DNA from: Modicisalibacter tunisiensis
GTDB lineage: Bacteria > Pseudomonadota > Gammaproteobacteria > Pseudomonadales > Halomonadaceae
Length of the DNA: 64,000 bases
NCBI RefSeq assembly: GCF_020148005.1
Contig: NZ_JAGXFD010000001.1
Coordinates: 2,979,322 to 3,043,321 of the forward strand
Direction: 5' to 3'
The notes under the pieces were generated by a model. The model saw nothing but the letters and a program-made list of their open reading frames with translations, searched no databases and had not been told where the DNA came from. The translations under genes were made by a program, and so were the position numbers. This document shows, piece by piece, positions 483 through 13,037 of this stretch; the stretch's first letter is position 1; every line of letters begins with the position of its first letter.

Positions 483-1970
483 TTACGAGGGGAAGTTGAA
501 CTGCGCGCTTTCCTGGGCGCTGCGCCTGGGCCAGCGCTGGGAGATGGCCTTGCGGCGGGTATAGAAGCGCACGGCGTCGGGGCCGTAGGCGTGCAGGTCG
601 CCGAACAGCGAGTCCTTCCAGCCACCGAAGCTGTGGAAGGCAACCGGCACCGGCAGCGGCACGTTGATGCCGACCATGCCGACCTCGATGGCGTCGGCGA
701 AGCGCCGCCCGGCCTCGCCGTCGCGGGTGAACACGCAGGTACCGTTGCCGTACTGGTGGGCGTTGATCAGGGCGATGGCCTCGTCGAAGGTCTCGACGCG
801 CACCACACACAGCACCGGGCCGAAGATCTCGTCACGGTAGATGCTCATGTCCGTCGTGACACGGTCGAACAGCGTGGCGCCGAGGAAGTAGCCCGGCGAG
901 CCGTCCACCAGCGGATGCTCGCGGCCGTCGACCACCAGCTCGGCACCAGCGGCGGCGCCCTGCTCGATGTAGCCGGCGACCTTGTCGCGCTGGCCGGCGT
1001 TGATCAGCGCGCCCATGTCGAGGCCCTTCTCGGTGCCCGCGCCGATCTTGAGTTCGCGGGCCTGAGGCGCCAGACGCTCGATCAGGGCGTCGGCGGTGGC
1101 ATCACCCACGCACACGGCCACGGAGATCGCCATGCAGCGCTCGCCGGCACTGCCGAACGCGGCGCCGATCAGGGTATTGGCGGCGTTGTCGAGGTCGGCG
1201 TCGGGCAGGACCACGGCGTGGTTCTTGGCGCCGCCGAGGGCCTGCACGCGTTTGCCCTGCCGAGTGCCGCCCTCGTAGATCCTGCGCGCCACCGGGGTGG
1301 AGCCGACGAACGACAGCGCCCGCACCTCGGGCGCCTCGATCAGCGCCTCGACGGCCTCGCGGTTGCCGTGGACCACGCTGAACAGCCCGCGGGGCAGCCC
1401 GGCCTCGTCGAGCAGCTCGGCCATCTTCACGGCAGCCGAGGGCACCTGTTCGGAGGGCTTGAGGATGAAGGCGTTGCCGCAGGCCAGCGCCATCGGGTAC
1501 ATCCACAGCGGCACCATGGCCGGGAAATTGAACGGCGTGATGCCGGCGACGACACCCAGCGGCTGGTGGTTGGACCAGGTGTCGATGGCCGGCCCGGCGT
1601 TGTGGGAATACTCGCCCTTGAGCAGCTCCGGCACGCCGCAGGCGTACTCGACGTTCTCGATGCCGCGCTTGAGTTCGCCCATGGCGTCCTCGAGCACCTT
1701 GCCGTGCTCCTCGCTGATCAGCGCGCAGATCTCGTCGGCGTCGCGCTCGAGCAGGGTCTTGAAGCGATACATCACCTGGGCGCGCTTGGCCGGCGGCAGG
1801 TCACGCCAGGCGGGCTGGGCCTCGCGGGCGGCGTCGATGGCGCGCTGCACGGTGGCGGTGTCGGCCATCGACAGGCGGCGTACCGGCTCGGCGGTGGCCG
1901 GGTTGATCACGTCGATGGTGCGCTGGCCCGCCAGGCGCTCGCCGGCGATCCAGTGGTATACGTCTGTCAT
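483..1970 (-). CDS. mmsA: CoA-acylating methylmalonate/malonate-semialdehyde dehydrogenase
   Basis: This 495-residue aldehyde dehydrogenase has the usual MMSDH length. It oxidises (methyl)malonate semialdehyde with NAD+ and CoA to propionyl- or acetyl-CoA, in the cytosol. Visible signatures are the N-terminal NP-x-T, the TPFNFP motif near residue 145, FVGSTPVAR near 221, and the catalytic cysteine in GSAGERCM (Cys279). The start at MTDVYHW is chosen because AAGAGA precedes it and homologues begin there; the frame stays open 32 codons further upstream. It is the last gene of the minus-strand run with the M24 and dioxygenase genes, separated from them by a 270-bp gap that holds a repeat. DddC and IolA belong to the same family, so substrate choice between methylmalonate and malonate semialdehyde cannot be read from sequence. 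Confidence 0.93.
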   Translation of the reverse strand: MTDVYHWIAGERLAGQRTIDVINPATAEPVRRLSMADTATVQRAIDAAREAQPAWRDLPPAKRAQVMYRFKTLLERDADEICALISEEHGKVLEDAMGELKRGIENVEYACGVPELLKGEYSHNAGPAIDTWSNHQPLGVVAGITPFNFPAMVPLWMYPMALACGNAFILKPSEQVPSAAVKMAELLDEAGLPRGLFSVVHGNREAVEALIEAPEVRALSFVGSTPVARRIYEGGTRQGKRVQALGGAKNHAVVLPDADLDNAANTLIGAAFGSAGERCMAISVAVCVGDATADALIERLAPQARELKIGAGTEKGLDMGALINAGQRDKVAGYIEQGAAAGAELVVDGREHPLVDGSPGYFLGATLFDRVTTDMSIYRDEIFGPVLCVVRVETFDEAIALINAHQYGNGTCVFTRDGEAGRRFADAIEVGMVGINVPLPVPVAFHSFGGWKDSLFGDLHAYGPDAVRFYTRRKAISQRWPRRSAQESAQFNFPS

Positions 1971-2045
1971 AGCGTCTCTTTTCTCGCGAATATGGTCGTC
2001 AGTCAGGGGTAGGGGCCTGGAACACCTTTCATAACCGGAGAACGG

Positions 2046-2234
2046 GATGGGCTTTCCCGGGGGCAAGCCTTCGCGAGGGCGCTGTAAACCCTTCCATGGG
2101 CGCTACCTTTGCCATCTGACCGCCATGGATGGCGGGAATGCCGGAATGGAAAGGAACACTTTCCGGCCATGGCAAAGGACCCTCGCTTCGCCTTGCCCCC
2201 GGCGCCCATCGTTCATTCCGAGCGTTTGGAAAGA
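2046..2234. repeat. Long intergenic repeat, copy 1 (with inserted loop)
   Basis: It matches the reverse complement of 47165-47298 almost throughout (shared blocks include GATGGGCTTTCCCG, CGCGAGGGCGCTGTAAACCC and GGGCGCTACCTTTGCCAT). The central palindrome CCTTTGCCAT (2106-2115)/ATGGCAAAGG (2169-2178) is split by a 53-nt loop that itself contains CCGCCAT-GG-ATGGCGG and GGAAAG-N5-CTTTCC. In the other copy the loop is only 2 nt. It fills the gap between the M24 gene and mmsA. No coding content is evident. Confidence 0.85.
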
Positions 2235-2239
2235 ATCTC

Positions 2240-3523
2240 TTAAAGCTCTCTTCCAAGCAGGGCTTCATCGAACGGATAGCGCGAGAGCTTTTCGATGCCG
2301 GTCTCGGTGACCAGCACTTCCTCCTCGAGCTTGACCCCGTCGGCGGCGCCGACCTCGCCGATGTAGCTCTCCACCGAGACCACCATGCCCGGCTCGAGGA
2401 TGCCGTCCTTGGAGAAGCGGTCGAAGTCCATGTGGTGGGCGACCAGCGGCGTCTCGCCGTGCATGCCCACGCCATGGATGATCGACGGGTAGCGGCGGTC
2501 GAGGAAGCGCTCGGGAATCTTCCAGGCGCGCTCGGCGATCTCGCGATAGCTCATGCCCGGCTTGAGGATCGCCATGTTGTGGTGGACCTGATCAAAGGCC
2601 ATCCGGTAGAGGCTCTGCTGGTAGCCGGTGGGCCGGCCGGGGCCGACGTGGAAGGTCCGCGAGAAGTCGGAATAGTAGCCGTGGCAGCCTATGGTGTCGG
2701 TATCCAGCGCCACCAGCTCCCCGGCACGGATCACCCGGCTGCTGGCCTCGTTGAACCAGGGGTTGGTGCGCGGACCCGAAGACAACAGGCGCGTCTCGAT
2801 GAACTCGCCGCCCTGCTCGATCACGTTGCCGTAGAGAATGGCGAACAGCTGGTTCTCGGTGACGCCCGGCTTGATCGCCGCTTCCACCTCGGCCACGGCG
2901 GCTTCGCTGCCGGCCATCGACTGGGCCAGGCAGGCGACCTCCTCGGGGGTCTTGATGCGCCGGCAGTGCAGGGTGTCCTGCATGCAGTCGAACACCTCGA
3001 GCCCCTGCGCCTCCAGCGAGCGCGCCAAGTTCAGCGCGCAGCGGTCCAGGCCGACCTTCTTGTTGCCCTTGCCGTGTGCCTCGATCAGCTCGGCGATCTC
3101 GACGCCGAAGGGGTCGGCGGAGAGGTTGTCGCGCTGGTTGACCGCCGACCACACCACCTTGGAGGTACGCGACTCGTCGATGGTCTCGAGCCAGGTCGAG
3201 ACGTGGGCGCTGCCGGGGTATTCGAAGAGGATCACCGGCCCTTCCAGCGGCACGTAGATGTAGCGCGTGGAGTTGCGCAGGAAATAGCCGAACATGTTGC
3301 GCGAGCCGGTGGCGTAGCGCTGGTTGTAGGGGTCGAACAGCACCACGGCGGCATAGCCCTGCTCGGCCATCATGGCGCGCAGGCGCGCGAGACGGCCGGC
3401 ACGCAGCTGCTTCGGGTCGAAGGCGTTGGGGATGCTGTCGCCGTTGGCCATCGGCGCGGAGGGAATGACCGGAATCTGATCCGGTTCGCTGTCGGTCAGA
3501 CGATCGGATTCGATGGAATTCAT
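2240..3523 (-). CDS. DddP-like M24-family (creatinase/prolidase-fold) metalloprotein
   Basis: This 427-residue protein has an N-terminal creatinase-like domain (about 40-180) and a C-terminal pita-bread M24 domain (about 195-420). Blocks such as EAHGKGN (149-153), GGE-x-IETRLL-x-SGPRTNPWF (238-257) and the tail YPFDEAL resemble DddP, the M24-type DMSP lyase. The expected metal ligands are all present: D274 and D276 in DTD, D286, H350 in HGVG, E385 and E400. At H350+6, where DddP has its proposed catalytic Asp377, this protein has Gly356. The start is ATG 3523 with AAGGAC upstream. It lies 58 bp after the dioxygenase gene. It could be a lyase or hydrolase on a DMSP-like or amino-acid-like substrate; a classical Xaa-Pro peptidase is less likely. 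Confidence 0.8.
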   Translation of the reverse strand: MNSIESDRLTDSEPDQIPVIPSAPMANGDSIPNAFDPKQLRAGRLARLRAMMAEQGYAAVVLFDPYNQRYATGSRNMFGYFLRNSTRYIYVPLEGPVILFEYPGSAHVSTWLETIDESRTSKVVWSAVNQRDNLSADPFGVEIAELIEAHGKGNKKVGLDRCALNLARSLEAQGLEVFDCMQDTLHCRRIKTPEEVACLAQSMAGSEAAVAEVEAAIKPGVTENQLFAILYGNVIEQGGEFIETRLLSSGPRTNPWFNEASSRVIRAGELVALDTDTIGCHGYYSDFSRTFHVGPGRPTGYQQSLYRMAFDQVHHNMAILKPGMSYREIAERAWKIPERFLDRRYPSIIHGVGMHGETPLVAHHMDFDRFSKDGILEPGMVVSVESYIGEVGAADGVKLEEEVLVTETGIEKLSRYPFDEALLGREL

Positions 3524-3581
3524 GAAAGAGTCCTTGCTGGGCCCAGCGTCGCGAGACACCGGGCCATGACGTGACGGAAGT

Positions 3582-4472
3582 TCAGTCGGCGAGGCTGTCG
3601 CTGCGCCGGGTGCGGCCTTCGCTGAGCATGCGCTCGTGAACCGGTGCCATGCGGCCGAAGATGCGCCGGGCGCGTTCCGGCTGACCGATGAAGCCCGGCT
3701 CCTTGGCATAGGCGAAGATCACCGTGTGCCGCTCGCGCTGGCCCTCCACCGGGGTCACCCGGTGCAGCGAATAGCGGCCGAAGAAGATCTGCAGGTCGCC
3801 CGGTTTCAGGTCCAGCGACTTCAGGCGGCTACGGTCACCGTCGAGTACTTCCTGCACACCCTCGAAGTTCTCGCCCTCGGGGCTGCGGATGCCGGGCGCG
3901 TACTCGAAGCGTCCGCCGCCTTCCGACTGACGGGTCATCATGGTGACGATGAACTCGTTGGTGTCGTAGTGCCACGGGTGCTGGCAGCCCTCGCGCAGCA
4001 CGTTGACCACCAGGTCGGCGAGCGGGTCGGCGTACTGGTGGATCTCGTCGACGCCCACCACGGTGGCGATGAAGCGCTGGAAATCCGGGTGACGGTAGAT
4101 CTGACGGATGATCGTCGAGTCATCGATGCGATCGCCGGCGACGAAGCCGTTGGTGCGATCGTCGAAGCGGTTGCGCGGATGCGAATCCGGCAGGCTCGGG
4201 TCGCCCGACGAGTTGTAGGGATTGGTCTCGTTCTGGTTGTAATGCGCCTCCGGAGACAGGCGCTCCGTCTCGCGCTCGAGACGCGCCAGCGCCTCTTCCG
4301 GCACGAACCGCTCGAGGACGACGCAGCCATCCTCGGCAAGCTGCCGGCGGCAGGCATCGATCAGCGCCTGGCCGGCGTCGCCCGAGAGCTGGGTGATGGG
4401 GTAACGCTGAAGATCGACGATGCCCTGCAGGGCCGACGTGGTGTCCCCGGCTTCGGCGGCGTTGGCGTGCAT
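3582..4472 (-). CDS. Fe(II)/2-oxoglutarate-dependent dioxygenase
   Basis: This 296-residue cytosolic protein has a double-stranded beta-helix pattern. H168-Y-D170 gives the HxD half of the iron triad, H237 (in YSLHRV) is the distal histidine, and R248 (ERHTVIF) is a likely 2-oxoglutarate ligand. The stretch QHPWHYDTNEF and the following EGGGRFEY recall the group holding phytanoyl-CoA dioxygenase-like enzymes and HalD/BesD amino acid halogenases. The intact Asp predicts hydroxylation rather than halogenation, because halogenases replace it with Gly or Ala. It is the first gene of the operon with the M24 and mmsA genes and is divergent from a LysR gene. The substrate is unknown. Confidence 0.85.
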   Translation of the reverse strand: MHANAAEAGDTTSALQGIVDLQRYPITQLSGDAGQALIDACRRQLAEDGCVVLERFVPEEALARLERETERLSPEAHYNQNETNPYNSSGDPSLPDSHPRNRFDDRTNGFVAGDRIDDSTIIRQIYRHPDFQRFIATVVGVDEIHQYADPLADLVVNVLREGCQHPWHYDTNEFIVTMMTRQSEGGGRFEYAPGIRSPEGENFEGVQEVLDGDRSRLKSLDLKPGDLQIFFGRYSLHRVTPVEGQRERHTVIFAYAKEPGFIGQPERARRIFGRMAPVHERMLSEGRTRRSDSLAD

Positions 4473-4579
4473 GCGGTAAGCTCCTCTGGCCTTCGATAAC
4501 GCCTGGACAGCCTAGAGCCGCCGACTCCATAATAAAAATGAATGATTAAGATAAGATTGATTTGGGAGCCTTATAGACC
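4473..4579. promoter_or_regulatory. Divergent promoter region, dioxygenase operon / LysR regulator
   Basis: This is a 107-bp intergenic region, strongly AT-rich at about 4529-4565 in an otherwise GC-rich context. LysR proteins typically bind T-N11-A sites in such gaps and control both directions. No perfect palindrome was found, so the exact operator is not assigned. Confidence 0.5.
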
Positions 4580-5509
4580 ATGGATACCGACTTGCTGCGA
4601 TCCTTCGTGACCGTGGCGGAATGCGAGGGGTTCAGTGCGGCGGGAAAGATCCTCTGCCGCACCCAGTCGGCGGTGAGTCTGCAGATCAAGCGCCTGGAAG
4701 ACCGGATGGGCGAGAGCCTGTTCGAGCGGACCAGCCGCAGCGTGCTGCTGACCCCGGCCGGCGGGCGATTGCTGCCCTATGCGCGCCAGATGCTCAAGCT
4801 GGAGGACGAAGCCAAGCGCATGATGGGCGCCGACCGGCAGGGCGAGACGATCCGTCTGGGGATTTCCGAGGAGCAGGCCGGCGCCTACCTGCCCGAGCTG
4901 CTGCCGACCTTCGCCCGGGAGCACCCCGAGGTACGCCTCGAGCTCGTCTGCGACATCAGCGCCAGCCTGATCGAGCGCTTTCAGGAAGGGCTGCTCGACG
5001 TGGTGCTCGCGGTGCGCCACGGCCCCACGCATACCGGGGAGCTGCTGGGCCGGGAGCCGATGGTCTGGGCGGTGGCCGACTCCGTCGATCTGGCGGAGTG
5101 GACGCACCTGCCGCTGGCCCTCAATCCGGAAGGCTGCATCTTCCGGGCCCATGCCTTCGCCGCCCTGGGGCGGGCATCGCGCAGCTGGGACGTGCGCTAC
5201 ACCAGCCCCTCGCCCACCGGCGTCAACGTGGCGGTGCAGTCCGGGCTGGCGCTGACCGTGAAGACGCCGCGCAGCGTGCCGGCCGGCTGCCGTATCGTCG
5301 ACGCCGGCGAGGGCCTGCCCGAGCTCGGCCATGTGGAGATAGAAATTCACCGCAGCCCCGGGCAGATGGGCGAAGCCTTCGACGCCTTCTGCACCGCGCT
5401 GAGCCGCACGGTCACCGAGACCGAGAGCGTGGAAAGCGCCGAGATCCTCGGCGAGTCGAGTGCGGCCTGTGCCGCCCTGCCCGGCACGGCAAGTACCGCA
5501 CGCCGGTGA
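4580..5509 (+). CDS. LysR-family transcriptional regulator
   Basis: The protein has 309 residues. The N-terminal winged helix (about 1-60) shows the LysR pattern F-x-x-V-x-E-x-x-x-F-S-A-A then Q-S-A-V-S-L-Q-I-K-R-L-E and L-F-x-R-x-x-x-x-V-x-L-T-x-x-G. A periplasmic-binding-protein-like effector domain follows (about 90-290). The C-terminal 25 residues are low-complexity and rich in Ser and Ala. It is transcribed away from the dioxygenase gene, so it most likely regulates that operon in response to its substrate or a pathway intermediate. It is convergent with idi, 16 bp away. Confidence 0.92.
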   Translation: MDTDLLRSFVTVAECEGFSAAGKILCRTQSAVSLQIKRLEDRMGESLFERTSRSVLLTPAGGRLLPYARQMLKLEDEAKRMMGADRQGETIRLGISEEQAGAYLPELLPTFAREHPEVRLELVCDISASLIERFQEGLLDVVLAVRHGPTHTGELLGREPMVWAVADSVDLAEWTHLPLALNPEGCIFRAHAFAALGRASRSWDVRYTSPSPTGVNVAVQSGLALTVKTPRSVPAGCRIVDAGEGLPELGHVEIEIHRSPGQMGEAFDAFCTALSRTVTETESVESAEILGESSAACAALPGTASTARR

Positions 5510-5525: not shown

Positions 5526-6062
5526 TCAGCCGTCGCCCGCCAGCCGGGGAATCCCGGTCTCCGCGGCCCGTTCCAGATAGATCCGCAGCCAGGGCGTGAA
5601 CGCCTGCGGATTCGCGGCCACCTCCTGCCTGAGGGCCGCCACATCGACCCAGCGGCATTCGGCGACCTCCGCGGGGTCCGGGGCGAGCGTCGCCGCCGGG
5701 TCCCAGTCCGCCGCAAAGACCTGCACATGCTCGTGCTCGATCAGCCCGCCGCCCACCTCGGCCCGGTAGTCGAGGCGGCCGGCAGGCGCCAGCACCAGCA
5801 CCAGCCCCAGCTCCTCCTCGAGCCGGCGCGCGGCACAGGCCTCGACGGTTTCGCCCCAGTCGGGATGCGAGCAGCAGGCGTTGGCCCACTGCCCGGGCGA
5901 GTGATACTTGCCCGCGGCACGCCGCTGCAGCAGCGTCTCGCGCCCGCGAAAGACGAACACCGAGATCGCCAGGTGGCGGGTGCCCCGGCGGTGCGCCTCG
6001 AGCTTGCCGATGGGGCGAACGCACCCCAGGTCATCGAGGGCGGTAATGCGACGGTCGCTCAC
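5526..6062 (-). CDS. idi: Isopentenyl-diphosphate delta-isomerase, type I (NUDIX fold)
   Basis: It interconverts isopentenyl and dimethylallyl diphosphate. The protein has 178 residues from a GTG start at 6062, chosen because GGGAGAG lies just upstream and the preceding 22 codons have no counterpart in the family. The type I signatures are RHLAISVFVF, LLQRRAAGKYHSPGQWANACCSHP with the catalytic cysteine, and the NUDIX-like run GETVEACAARRLEEELG. The second catalytic element is E-H-E-H (about 122-125). The gene stands alone. Type I Idi is optional in bacteria that use the MEP pathway and is often kept where carotenoids or other terpenoids are made. Confidence 0.88.
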   Translation of the reverse strand: MSDRRITALDDLGCVRPIGKLEAHRRGTRHLAISVFVFRGRETLLQRRAAGKYHSPGQWANACCSHPDWGETVEACAARRLEEELGLVLVLAPAGRLDYRAEVGGGLIEHEHVQVFAADWDPAATLAPDPAEVAECRWVDVAALRQEVAANPQAFTPWLRIYLERAAETGIPRLAGDG

Positions 6063-10254: not shown

Positions 10255-11382
10255 ATGACCCCAGCCGCACCCTCACGTCTGCTGCGCCTGCATCAGTTCA
10301 CCGAACAGGCGGTGCAGCATCTGCGTCCCTACGCCTGGCTATGGCCGCCCGTCGCCTTCCTGATCGGCGCACTGAGCTTCCTGCTGGTCGACCGCCAGCA
10401 GTCCCTGGGCGCCTTCCTGGCCCTGGGGCTGCTGCTGGCCTGGGTACTGCTGCTGTCGGAGAGCCTCATCGGCCGGCTGCTGGCCCGGCGCGGCTACCCG
10501 ACCCTGCCCCGCGGCGTGACCACCTTCATCGCGCAGATGATTCATCAGGAGACGCTGTTCTTCACCCTGCCCTTCCTGCTGGCCACCACGGTCTGGCGCA
10601 GCGGCCAGGCCCTGTTCACCCTCGCCATGGTCGGCTGCGGGCTGCTGTCGATCCTCGACCCGCTCTACTTCCGCCTCGCCGAGCGCCATCGCTGGCTGTA
10701 TTTCGCCTTTCACGCGCTGTGCGTCTTCCTGGTGATCCTGGTGACGCTGCCCATCATGCTGCACCTGACCACCGGCGAGACGCTGCTGCTCGCCGTGCTG
10801 GCCACCATGGTGTTCAGCCTGCCGAGCCTGGTGCACCTGCTTCAGCCGCGCGGCCTGCTGCGCTGGCTGGCGATGCTGGGGCTGGCCATGCTGCTGGGGG
10901 CCGGCGCCTGGGCCGGGCGCGCCTGGATTCCGCCGGCGACGCTGTGGATCACCGGCAGCGCCCTGTCGCCCGGCTTCGACGTCCCGCACCGCCGTCCCGT
11001 GGAGTCCATGGCCCTGACCGAAGCCAACCTGCAGAAACGCGGGCTCTATGCCTATACCGCCATTCGCGCCCCGCGCGGGCTGCGCGAGAAGGTCTACCAC
11101 GTCTGGCGTCACGACGGAAAAATCATCGACCGCATTCCACTGATCATTCACGGTGGGCGTGACGGCGGCTATCGCGCCTGGACCCACAAGCAGCACTTCC
11201 CCGAGGCCGCCGCCGGGCGCTGGCGGATCGACGTGATGACCGCCACCGGGCAACGTCTGGGGGTCATCCGCTTCTCGGTCGTCGAGGAGGCGCGCCAGGC
11301 CGGCCGGGCCGACGGCCGGATCCGCTCCCCGGCAGGCGTGCCGGGGCTCGACCTGCGTCGGCTGATTCCCGACGCGGACTGA
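10255..11382 (+). CDS. DUF5924/DUF2914 integral membrane protein
   Basis: This 375-residue protein has roughly seven hydrophobic segments between residues 25 and 225, followed by a soluble C-terminal domain (about 245-350). That domain has the DUF2914 pattern: VYHVWRHDGK, IPLIIHGGRDGGYRAW, GRWRIDVMTATGQRLG. The layout is that of DUF5924 family proteins. The function is unknown; the inner-membrane location is inferred from hydrophobicity. The gene is divergent from fadB and is followed 54 bp later by slyA on the same strand. Confidence 0.85.
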   Translation: MTPAAPSRLLRLHQFTEQAVQHLRPYAWLWPPVAFLIGALSFLLVDRQQSLGAFLALGLLLAWVLLLSESLIGRLLARRGYPTLPRGVTTFIAQMIHQETLFFTLPFLLATTVWRSGQALFTLAMVGCGLLSILDPLYFRLAERHRWLYFAFHALCVFLVILVTLPIMLHLTTGETLLLAVLATMVFSLPSLVHLLQPRGLLRWLAMLGLAMLLGAGAWAGRAWIPPATLWITGSALSPGFDVPHRRPVESMALTEANLQKRGLYAYTAIRAPRGLREKVYHVWRHDGKIIDRIPLIIHGGRDGGYRAWTHKQHFPEAAAGRWRIDVMTATGQRLGVIRFSVVEEARQAGRADGRIRSPAGVPGLDLRRLIPDAD

Positions 11383-11436
11383 CATCGAATCGCTCAAGGG
11401 GGGTTGCATTACCCGGCAGTTCCCGGAGAATCAAGC

Positions 11437-11919
11437 ATGAAATTAGCCTGCGAAACGACAAATCCAATGCCTGAAACTATCGGATTCAAGCTCACGCGCC
11501 TGGCGCGCATCTGGCGCGCCATCATCGACGAGCGGCTGGCGCCGCTGGAGCTGACCCAGACCCGCTGGGTGACCCTCTACCATCTCTGGCAGATGGGCGA
11601 TGGCCAGCCGCAGTGCGACCTGGCCCGCGCCATCGGCGTCGAGGCGCCCTCGCTGGTGCGCACGCTCGACCAGCTGGCCGAACAGGGGCTGGTCGAGCGC
11701 CGCCCGTCTCCCGAGGACCGTCGCACCAAGCAGGTCTTCCTCACGCAGCAGGCCACGCCGCTGCTGGAGCAGATCGACACCATCGTCACCCAGGCGCGTA
11801 CCGAGATGCTGGCCGGCATCGCCCAGCAGGACCTGGAAGTCCTCGACGAACTGCTGACTCGCGTCGAAAGCAATGCCCTGCGCCTGCAGACCCGCAAGCC
11901 GGGCAGCGACGACTGCTGA
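11437..11919 (+). CDS. slyA: SlyA-type MarR-family transcriptional regulator
   Basis: The protein has 160 residues. The segment RLARIWRAIIDERLAPLELTQTRWVTL and the wing EAPSLVRTLDQL-x-x-x-GLVERRPSPEDRRTKQVFLT match enterobacterial SlyA closely. SlyA binds DNA as a dimer, often countering H-NS-type silencing or responding to small aromatic ligands. The start at 11437 is chosen because GGAGAA lies 7 nt upstream; a second ATG 11 codons later would remove residues that precede the conserved region. Confidence 0.88.
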   Translation: MKLACETTNPMPETIGFKLTRLARIWRAIIDERLAPLELTQTRWVTLYHLWQMGDGQPQCDLARAIGVEAPSLVRTLDQLAEQGLVERRPSPEDRRTKQVFLTQQATPLLEQIDTIVTQARTEMLAGIAQQDLEVLDELLTRVESNALRLQTRKPGSDDC

Positions 11920-11952
11920 CACCCGCGCGGCCCGCCTCCCGGGGCCGCCGAT

Positions 11953-12474
11953 CTAGCACGGCGCGTCGGGCGGCCCCCGTCGTGCCTCATTGCCGGCCAG
12001 GGCATCACGCAGCGTGCCCAGCCGAGCATCGAGTGCCTCGAACGCCGCCGCCGGCTGCGATTCCCGCCACCACAGCCACAGGAAGTCGCGGGTCGACTCC
12101 AGCACCAGGGCATCCCCGGGCAGCTGCGCCAGCACCGCCTCCAGCGCCACACGTTGCTCCTGCGTGAGCGGCCGCAGTGGCTCGATCCGCCAGCGCCAGC
12201 CCTCGGCGCACGGTTTGAGCGCCTCGCTGGCGTGGGAGTCCCGCACGGCGACACAGCGCGGCCCGGGAGTCGTCTGCGGGTAGCGCCAGCGATAGGCGAC
12301 CAGCCCCCCTTCCGGCTGGTGCAGCGGCGGCTTGCCGAAATGCACCGACACGCCCGCCTCGCGCGCCGCTTCGCGCAGCCCCACGAGGCGCCGCTCGCGC
12401 GGCGAGGGACGCAGCCACACCACCGGCGACAGCATCGCCAGCAGCGCCAGTCCCAGGACCAGCCAGAAGGTCAT
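11953..12474 (-). CDS. Hypothetical single-pass membrane protein
   Basis: This protein of 173 residues is not recognised. It begins with one hydrophobic helix (residues 2-21), then a basic stretch (RPSPRERR), then a soluble domain with a conserved-looking GGLVAYRWRYP segment, several tryptophans, and a C-terminal predicted helix (about 105-160). This suggests an inner-membrane anchor with a cytosolic domain. It is convergent with slyA and divergent from the universal stress protein gene. Confidence 0.6.
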   Translation of the reverse strand: MTFWLVLGLALLAMLSPVVWLRPSPRERRLVGLREAAREAGVSVHFGKPPLHQPEGGLVAYRWRYPQTTPGPRCVAVRDSHASEALKPCAEGWRWRIEPLRPLTQEQRVALEAVLAQLPGDALVLESTRDFLWLWWRESQPAAAFEALDARLGTLRDALAGNEARRGPPDAPC

Positions 12475-12568
12475 CGAAATCTCCTAAAACGTTGATATGG
12501 GTCGTTGTGAAGCACAAAACGACGCCGTAGAGTGAAGTCGACCATTCGTCGACAAGGGAGGGCTTCCC

Positions 12569-13027
12569 ATGAGCAATGAATACCATCACGTCCTGGTGGC
12601 GGTGGACCTCACCAAGGATTCCCACAGGGTTCTCGAGCGCGCCATTCCCATCGCGCGCCGCAACAACGCCAAGCTGTCGGTGATTCACACCCTGGAGCCG
12701 CTGGGCTTCGCCTACGGCGGCGACATCCCCATGGACCTGACCAGCATCCAGGATCAGCTCGACGAGCATGCCAAGAGCCGCCTGGCCGAGGTCGCCGACC
12801 CCCATGACGTCCCCCGCGAGGATCAGCATGTGGTGGTGGGCATGCCGGACACCGAGATCCACCGCTTCTCCAAGGAAAACGACGTCGACCTGATCGTGGT
12901 CGGCTCCCACGGTCGTCACGGCTTCGCGCTGCTGCTGGGCTCCACCTCCACCGGCGTGCTGCACGGCGCCGAATGCGACGTGCTGGCGGTTCGCGTCGGC
13001 AAGGAAGGCGAAGAGACCGCCGAGTAA
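12569..13027 (+). CDS. Universal stress protein (UspA family)
   Basis: The protein has 152 residues. It shows the Usp fold: N-terminal HHVLVAVDLTKDS, a central A-x-x-x-x-A-K-L-S-V-I-H-T-L strand, and C-terminal DLIVVGSHGRHGFALLLGSTS. The glycine spacing in the last motif is close to, but one residue short of, the ATP-binding G-2x-G-9x-G(S/T) pattern, so nucleotide binding is uncertain. The ATG follows AAGGGAGG. It is a single-gene unit ended by the hairpin shared with uup. Confidence 0.9.
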   Translation: MSNEYHHVLVAVDLTKDSHRVLERAIPIARRNNAKLSVIHTLEPLGFAYGGDIPMDLTSIQDQLDEHAKSRLAEVADPHDVPREDQHVVVGMPDTEIHRFSKENDVDLIVVGSHGRHGFALLLGSTSTGVLHGAECDVLAVRVGKEGEETAE

Positions 13028-13037
13028 CGTCTTCGCG

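Follow-up and report, generated by a model that had tools for sequence, protein, structure and literature searches.

A HalD-family oxygenase paired with a DddP-like M24 protein as the predicted oxidative part of a betaine-type catabolic cluster in Modicisalibacter tunisiensis

Betaines are major osmolytes and sources of carbon and nitrogen in saline waters, in soils and around plant roots. In this study, we analysed a stretch of 64,000 nucleotides (the window) from Modicisalibacter tunisiensis, a member of the Halomonadaceae (contig NZ_JAGXFD010000001.1, positions 2,979,322 to 3,043,321), of which positions 483-5509 hold a candidate operon pairing an Fe(II)/2-oxoglutarate (2OG) oxygenase of the HalD family with an M24 metalloenzyme. 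An earlier note on this DNA had recognised here, in this order, an HxD dioxygenase, a DddP-like M24 protein and a CoA-acylating semialdehyde dehydrogenase (MmsA) with a divergent LysR gene, and all four genes were confirmed at their coordinates:

483-1970, minus strand: MmsA-type CoA-acylating (methyl)malonate semialdehyde dehydrogenase, 495 amino acids (aa)
1971-2239, minus strand: gap between the M24 gene and mmsA, 269 bp, folding strongly as RNA; possible role in modulating mmsA expression or setting it apart
2240-3523, minus strand: M24 (pita-bread) metalloenzyme, DddP-like, 427 aa; Gly356 replaces Asp377 of DddP
3582-4472, minus strand: HalD/BesD-family Fe(II)/2OG oxygenase, 296 aa; HxD...H...R = H168, D170, H237, R248
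4473-4579, no strand assigned: divergent intergenic region between oxygenase and LysR, 107 bp from coordinates, likely regulatory
4580-5509, plus strand: LysR-type regulator, divergent, 309 aa; PF00126 and PF03466

The oxygenase and M24 genes are separated by 58 bp, and the 269-bp and 107-bp gaps lie on either side of this pair. Genes in this and the compared loci (L numbers; genomes carry G numbers) were predicted with a codon-usage caller; some loci contain truncated genes, and L151, L166, L168 and L169 are without usable calls.

In this clade the unit is the oxygenase plus M24, with MmsA as an optional member. In the best 80 of 85 loci fetched with the oxygenase as query, M24 adjoins the oxygenase in every case (80/80, with 13-144 bp between match ends), and MmsA follows in 45, or in 43 of the 77 loci where 1.5 kb or more of sequence was available. 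Since the oxygenase was the query and most loci come from Halomonadaceae, these 80 are related samples, the nearest named one being from Halomonadaceae bacterium T82-2 (98%). Among 97 relative genomes, an oxygenase orthologue (77-100%) is present in 24, with M24 adjacent in all 24. Thus, of the proposal that the three genes travel together, the oxygenase-M24 part stands and the MmsA part does not, and MmsA was rejected as a core member; the description of the locus as a conserved, catabolic-looking operon is nevertheless borne out. The LysR gene is divergent within 400 bp of the oxygenase in 77/80 loci. In the other three (L071, 3261-7895; L076; L080) it is divergent beyond an inserted five-gene Liv-type ATP-binding cassette (ABC) transporter, which is oriented with the oxygenase and may be an alternative uptake system.

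The pairing extends to paralogues. M24 lies within 300 bp in 18 of 20 further HalD loci (43-48% identity); in the 19th, from the M. tunisiensis genome itself, it follows after a true gap of 211 bp when full genes are used, and the 20th has none (a 58-residue HalD fragment in G086 was left out of the counts). The same genome carries a second module of LysR, HalD, M24 and an OpuAC binding protein (G000:C1, ~677.6-681.9 kb; L105), and HalD-M24 followed by OpuAC/ProX-type genes is seen in L105 and L101, and in L150 with another 2OG oxygenase in between. Further afield the pairing is looser, and more distant HalD proteins are often without an M24 neighbour: three loci at 35-38% identity have no M24 nearby, and of four plasmid HalD matches taken from 92 records, two have M24 (L101, L102) and two have none (L103, L110).

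The oxygenase matches the Pfam HalD family PF23169 well above the cut-off (E 1.2e-17; 64.6 bits versus 26). Its AlphaFold model (mean predicted local distance difference test score, pLDDT, 78.6) has the ornithine-bound HalD structure as its top match (7u6h, E 1e-15), followed in order by HalB, HalA, a hydroxylase homologue of BesD (7jsd) and BesD. H168, D170, H237 and R248 are invariant in 27/27 aligned orthologues (the window plus 26 of the 80 loci, 27 rows picked from 81). In the wider HalD family the Asp of HxD is found in 18/18 rows and the Arg in 17/18, these rows excluding matches shorter than 200 aa as well as HalD from L103, L110, L162-L164 and L170-L172. 2OG halogenases carry Gly or Ala where HxD has Asp, and the HalB sequence indeed reads WHWGD, with Gly at this position. 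Because the Asp of HxD is present, the window oxygenase should be a hydroxylase, as the earlier note had proposed, and a halogenase role was rejected on the presence of this residue in both alignments. The enzyme therefore resembles HalD/BesD halogenases and hydroxylases in predicted fold and in PF23169, with HxD as in the hydroxylases, whereas it differs from the solved members by its low identity (~17%) and its betaine-type gene context. HalD-family proteins of a different subgroup (33-37% identity) also occur on enterobacterial plasmids of Pantoea, Klebsiella and others (matches H7-H40), where they are mostly annotated as 2OG-Fe(II) oxygenase and in one case as arpA.

The M24 protein is even more conserved than the oxygenase, with a mean column identity among orthologues of 91% as compared to 82%. 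It matches PF00557 (1.9e-33) and the structure 4rzy (E 5e-78); its own structure model was weak (pLDDT 61.7) and was left out of the analysis. Over the aligned part it is 36% identical to RlDddP, a relationship which brings in a route for dimethylsulfoniopropionate (DMSP) or another sulfonium compound, with M24 as a DddP-type lyase and MmsA as a DddC-like step. PMC4108388 lists Asp295, Asp297, Asp307, His371, Glu406 and Glu421 as metal ligands of RdDddP, prefers Asp377 as the candidate base and describes both Asp377 and Tyr366 as invariant in DddP lyases. All six ligand positions, Asp297 included, are kept in the window M24 (D274, D276, D286, H350, E385, E400; motif HGVGMHGE), and Tyr366 is kept as Tyr345, but Asp377 is replaced by Gly356 in 27/27 orthologues. 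Furthermore, M24 scores 318.6 bits with the NCBI DddP equivalog model NF043017, whose cut-off is 600. In a tree of 33 M24 rows, the window's clade of 16 stands apart (support 96/100), and RlDddP falls in a set of nine Asp-bearing proteins (support 94/75), on a long branch which leaves its place unsure; the members of this set mostly adjoin MttB or Rieske-type genes. The partner labels of the tree are in part assumed, L155 being labelled MttB though its contig ends before any MttB, and L152 Rieske on a reductase alone. Gly occupies the Asp377 position in 14/15 M24s labelled as HalD-partnered, the one from a Pseudomonas plasmid having Asp, and also in three Sinorhizobium/Shinella M24s partnered with MttB. 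We rejected M24 as a DddP-type DMSP lyase because of the missing Asp377, the low model score and the separate clade. A sulfonium route as a whole is very improbable, despite the presence of MmsA and the fact that betaine-family transporters of the QAT type, discussed below, also carry DMSP, since a lyase would need no oxygenase. Thus, the DddP/DMSP parallel drawn in the earlier note does not hold as chemistry. M24 shares with DddP the fold family and the metal-site residues, lacks a lyase context, and appears to belong to an uncharacterised DddP-like subfamily.

The system is larger than the earlier note described, and its additional parts lie mostly outside the window. Genes for a QAT permease, ATPase and permease, an OsmF/ProX-like binding protein, a carbon-nitrogen (CN) hydrolase and an MmgE/PrpD protein (families assigned on the homologues in L087) are found at G000:C1 2970176-2975956, spanning 3.4-9.1 kb left of the window and ending 3.4 kb before its first base. 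An orthologue of the CN hydrolase (69-100%) is present in 24/24 genomes with the oxygenase and in 1/73 others (G051, partial), a co-distribution with a Fisher probability of 7e-22 without phylogenetic correction; the copy in G060 is listed with an internal stop. Within five genera in which only some members have the trait, the two genes agree in their presence and absence, while a sixth genus (G033, G051) disagrees. The QAT binding protein occurs in the same 24 genomes and in G051 (72%), G047 (partial, 73%), G029 and G049 (both 50%). The HalD paralogue tracks the CN hydrolase less well (11/15 genomes, G051 counted). As a neighbour control we used the isopentenyl diphosphate (IPP)-isomerase-like gene beside LysR, which is found in 4/97 genomes, all four with the oxygenase, and is a weak control because it is so rare. 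The QAT-hydrolase and oxygenase-M24 blocks lie within 50 kb of each other in 20/24 genomes. In the 8-kb flanks of the 80 loci, the CN hydrolase was seen in 29 and MmgE in 10; these counts are lower bounds, as are those for QAT genes given below, because the cassette of M. tunisiensis itself would lie partly outside such flanks. In L161, from another class, the oxygenase-M24 pair stands beside CN hydrolase and QAT genes, with no LysR gene called. A QAT-type transporter is thus linked to the enzymes in M. tunisiensis and most relatives, as in betaine clusters, which supports the betaine- or osmolyte-type substrate suggested in the earlier note.

These blocks might alternatively form two pathways, one made of QAT, CN hydrolase and MmgE and the other of oxygenase and M24, which were co-inherited for life in saline habitats. 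They are indeed separate gene groups with differing orders, far apart or on another contig in 4/24 genomes; two Paracoccus plasmids and the Shinella HZN7 plasmid have the cassette without oxygenase-M24; G051 has the hydrolase and binding protein with no oxygenase orthologue; and MmgE was seen in ten of the 80 flanks. We regard this explanation as quite unlikely, however, in view of the matching presence and absence inside the five trait-mixed genera and the linkage within 50 kb in most genomes.

Several loci show additions around the cassette. In L174 (e.g. 10998-13034), L175, L176 and L178, a second CN hydrolase (54-61% identical to that of L087) lies near the first cassette, together with a gene of 667-678 aa (a CocE/NonD-type hydrolase where tested, in L174) and another QAT binding protein; in L180 such a second set lies apart from the first cassette. 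It perhaps serves a second, ester- or amide-linked substrate. A Na+/H+ antiporter-family gene is located upstream of the QAT cassette in L104 (143-1492) and in L182, which also has a true hutH; in L174 antiporter-family and aromatic amino acid lyase family genes are nearby, and L181 has genes of the same sizes.

The partners of related M24 proteins bear on what the oxygenase does. In Sinorhizobium/Shinella loci (L099, L100, L106), M24s of the window's clade (~63-65% identity) are found with MttB, an isochorismatase-family hydrolase and QAT genes, L099 and L100 adding a flavin adenine dinucleotide (FAD)/GcvT-like oxidoreductase; L146 and L147, of the same clade, lack both HalD and MttB but have an isochorismatase-family gene. 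More distant M24s lie beside MttB and an FAD oxidoreductase (L107, L153, L154), beside just an FAD oxidoreductase where the contig ends (L155), beside a Rieske oxygenase, its reductase and hydroxyproline genes in Rhizobium leguminosarum (L108), or beside a Rieske-type reductase and similar genes (L152), and in L109 an MttB gene is ~5 kb from M24. Among 15 M24 regions surveyed, four have HalD, two MttB with an FAD oxidoreductase, one an FAD oxidoreductase alone and one a Rieske reductase. In addition, on the two Paracoccus plasmids the QAT genes and a CN hydrolase gene (hydrolase 49.6% identical) stand with a Rieske oxygenase, reductase and flavoproteins, and neither HalD nor M24 is listed in their gene tables, which are incomplete. 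Demethylation of betaines is a known role of both the Rieske and the MttB family, Stc2/Hpb being Rieske-type names for proline and hydroxyproline betaine clusters. Because these M24s pair with MttB or Rieske genes, and the QAT-hydrolase cassette with Rieske genes, in place of HalD, the simplest reading of the exchange is that the 2OG oxygenase would fill the demethylase slot. For glycine betaine, GbcAB and a corrinoid MtgBCD route are named in PMC12478193. Compared with Rieske betaine clusters of the GbcAB kind, the present one shares a LysR or GlxA regulator, a QAT transporter and an oxidative first enzyme, and the Rieske-type cluster of R. leguminosarum has an M24 gene as well; here, in contrast, a HalD-family 2OG oxygenase replaces the Rieske enzyme and its reductase, and M24 has Gly356 rather than Asp. 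The MttB (corrinoid) clusters of rhizobia and roseobacters have, in Sinorhizobium and Shinella, the same M24 clade and QAT family, but MttB instead of the oxygenase, an FAD/GcvT-like oxidoreductase (L099, L100), and an isochorismatase-family protein instead of the CN hydrolase.

Alternatively, the oxygenase could hydroxylate a cationic amino acid, or a derivative of one, at a carbon atom, as hydroxylases of the HalD/BesD family do, the product being cleaved or hydrolysed by M24, with the transporter serving that zwitterion or being a mere neighbour. In the nearest solved structures the ligands are ornithine and lysine; some members of the family have neighbouring ABC transporters of other kinds (judged by layout in L103, with a Liv-type binding protein in L142), and the Liv-type set occurs in three loci of halomonads. 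We consider this unlikely, because the oxygenase co-distributes with the QAT-CN hydrolase cassette and because the MttB and Rieske-type partners of related M24s are ill-suited to a primary amino acid.

Taken together, we favour, with somewhat more confidence than doubt, the reading that the operon is the oxidative part of a pathway which breaks down a quaternary-ammonium osmolyte, probably not glycine betaine, and in which the oxygenase is the probable N-demethylase. The solute would enter through the QAT (OsmF/ProX-like) ABC transporter and be hydroxylated by the oxygenase, with an N-methyl carbon as the likeliest site and formaldehyde as the leaving product (N-demethylation); the enzyme would thereby do the job of the Rieske or corrinoid MttB demethylases of sister clusters. 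M24 would act next, on the product of the oxygenase, and the CN hydrolase, by an amide-type hydrolysis, and the MmgE/PrpD protein would process the remainder. Elsewhere the hydrolase slot is taken by an isochorismatase-family or an Amidase PF01425 protein. Where MmsA is present, it may provide, in some lineages, an outlet from a small semialdehyde to acyl-CoA. The order of the reactions and the (methyl)malonate semialdehyde that the earlier note proposed as product are putative. The three window genes would be transcribed as a single operon, and LysR would control the divergent promoter. The genome has a separate GbcA (L187; 840.9 bits versus a cut-off of 670) and no MttB match was found in it. 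The target is therefore probably a compound different from glycine betaine, which the separate GbcA makes an unlikely main substrate. β-Alanine betaine would, by inference only, suit a pathway whose end product is malonate or methylmalonate semialdehyde. Neighbouring genes (hydroxyproline genes, HutH, the CocE hydrolase and a class III aminotransferase) give conflicting leads to the substrate.

A number of observations weigh against this reading. To judge by the structure titles, lysine or ornithine is the ligand of those HalD-family enzymes whose structures are solved, and a Liv-type transporter lies upstream of the oxygenase in three loci. QAT genes were found in the fetched flanks of just 21/80 loci, and the hydrolase is 400 kb away in one of the 24 genomes and on another contig in three. 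In 13 HalD regions of another class, M24 is adjacent in two (L161, L167), either distant or several kb away in two (L165, L173) and not seen in six, three being not callable. No recognised oxidative partner was seen in 6/15 of the surveyed M24 regions, one more being not callable, and the QAT and CN hydrolase cassette of the Shinella HZN7 plasmid (L191) lists neither HalD, M24 nor Rieske genes in its incomplete table. Finally, HalD-family and MttB genes occur together in L103, L110 and L141, and L110 has Rieske genes as well; since these loci hold both, HalD and MttB could be successive steps.

It is conceivable, albeit still doubtful, that the HalD-family HxD enzymes of this clade represent a new class of aerobic, 2OG-dependent quaternary-ammonium N-demethylases acting with a new M24 activity, a further solution beside Rieske and MttB enzymes. 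Such a class would need neither reductase nor corrinoid, and its setting would be betaine osmolytes in halophiles. Among the matches listed from open-licence PMC literature, no description of an oxygenase-M24 betaine cluster was found, and the accessible parts of PMC4113996 and PMC10686828 give none; older proline-betaine papers may mention M24 genes. Should the oxygenase prove to be a betaine demethylase, a route so far unrecognised would be present in many halomonads (24 of 61 sampled family members), and betaine breakdown would be the true setting of DddP-like M24 genes that are labelled Xaa-Pro peptidase or could be mistaken for DMSP lyases. The exchange of partners also yields a short list of substrates to test.

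MmsA scores 662 bits with TIGR01722 (cut-off 448.5), which identifies it as a methylmalonate semialdehyde dehydrogenase, and matches the structure 5tjr (E 1e-238). Two more MmsA-like genes (56 and 50% identity) are present in the genome, and therefore the window copy may be a dedicated one. The 56% copy adjoins a gene for a 370-aa protein (L184:262-1374) which may be an agmatine deiminase.

The gap between M24 and mmsA folds strongly (z -4.09; 0/200 shuffles as good) and holds, by eye, a 10-bp perfect inverted repeat, possibly an attenuator or a repetitive extragenic palindromic (REP)-like element. A terminator separating M24 from mmsA was rejected despite this fold, as the scan found no T-run terminator (0 terminator-like sites). 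A single sigma-70-like site was found on the plus strand at 4504-4533 in 2.8 kb scanned, which is not significant against shuffles (mean 0.4). Beyond LysR, the NUDIX protein at window positions 5526-6062 exceeds two IPP isomerase cut-offs and is patchy in its occurrence (4/97 relative genomes).

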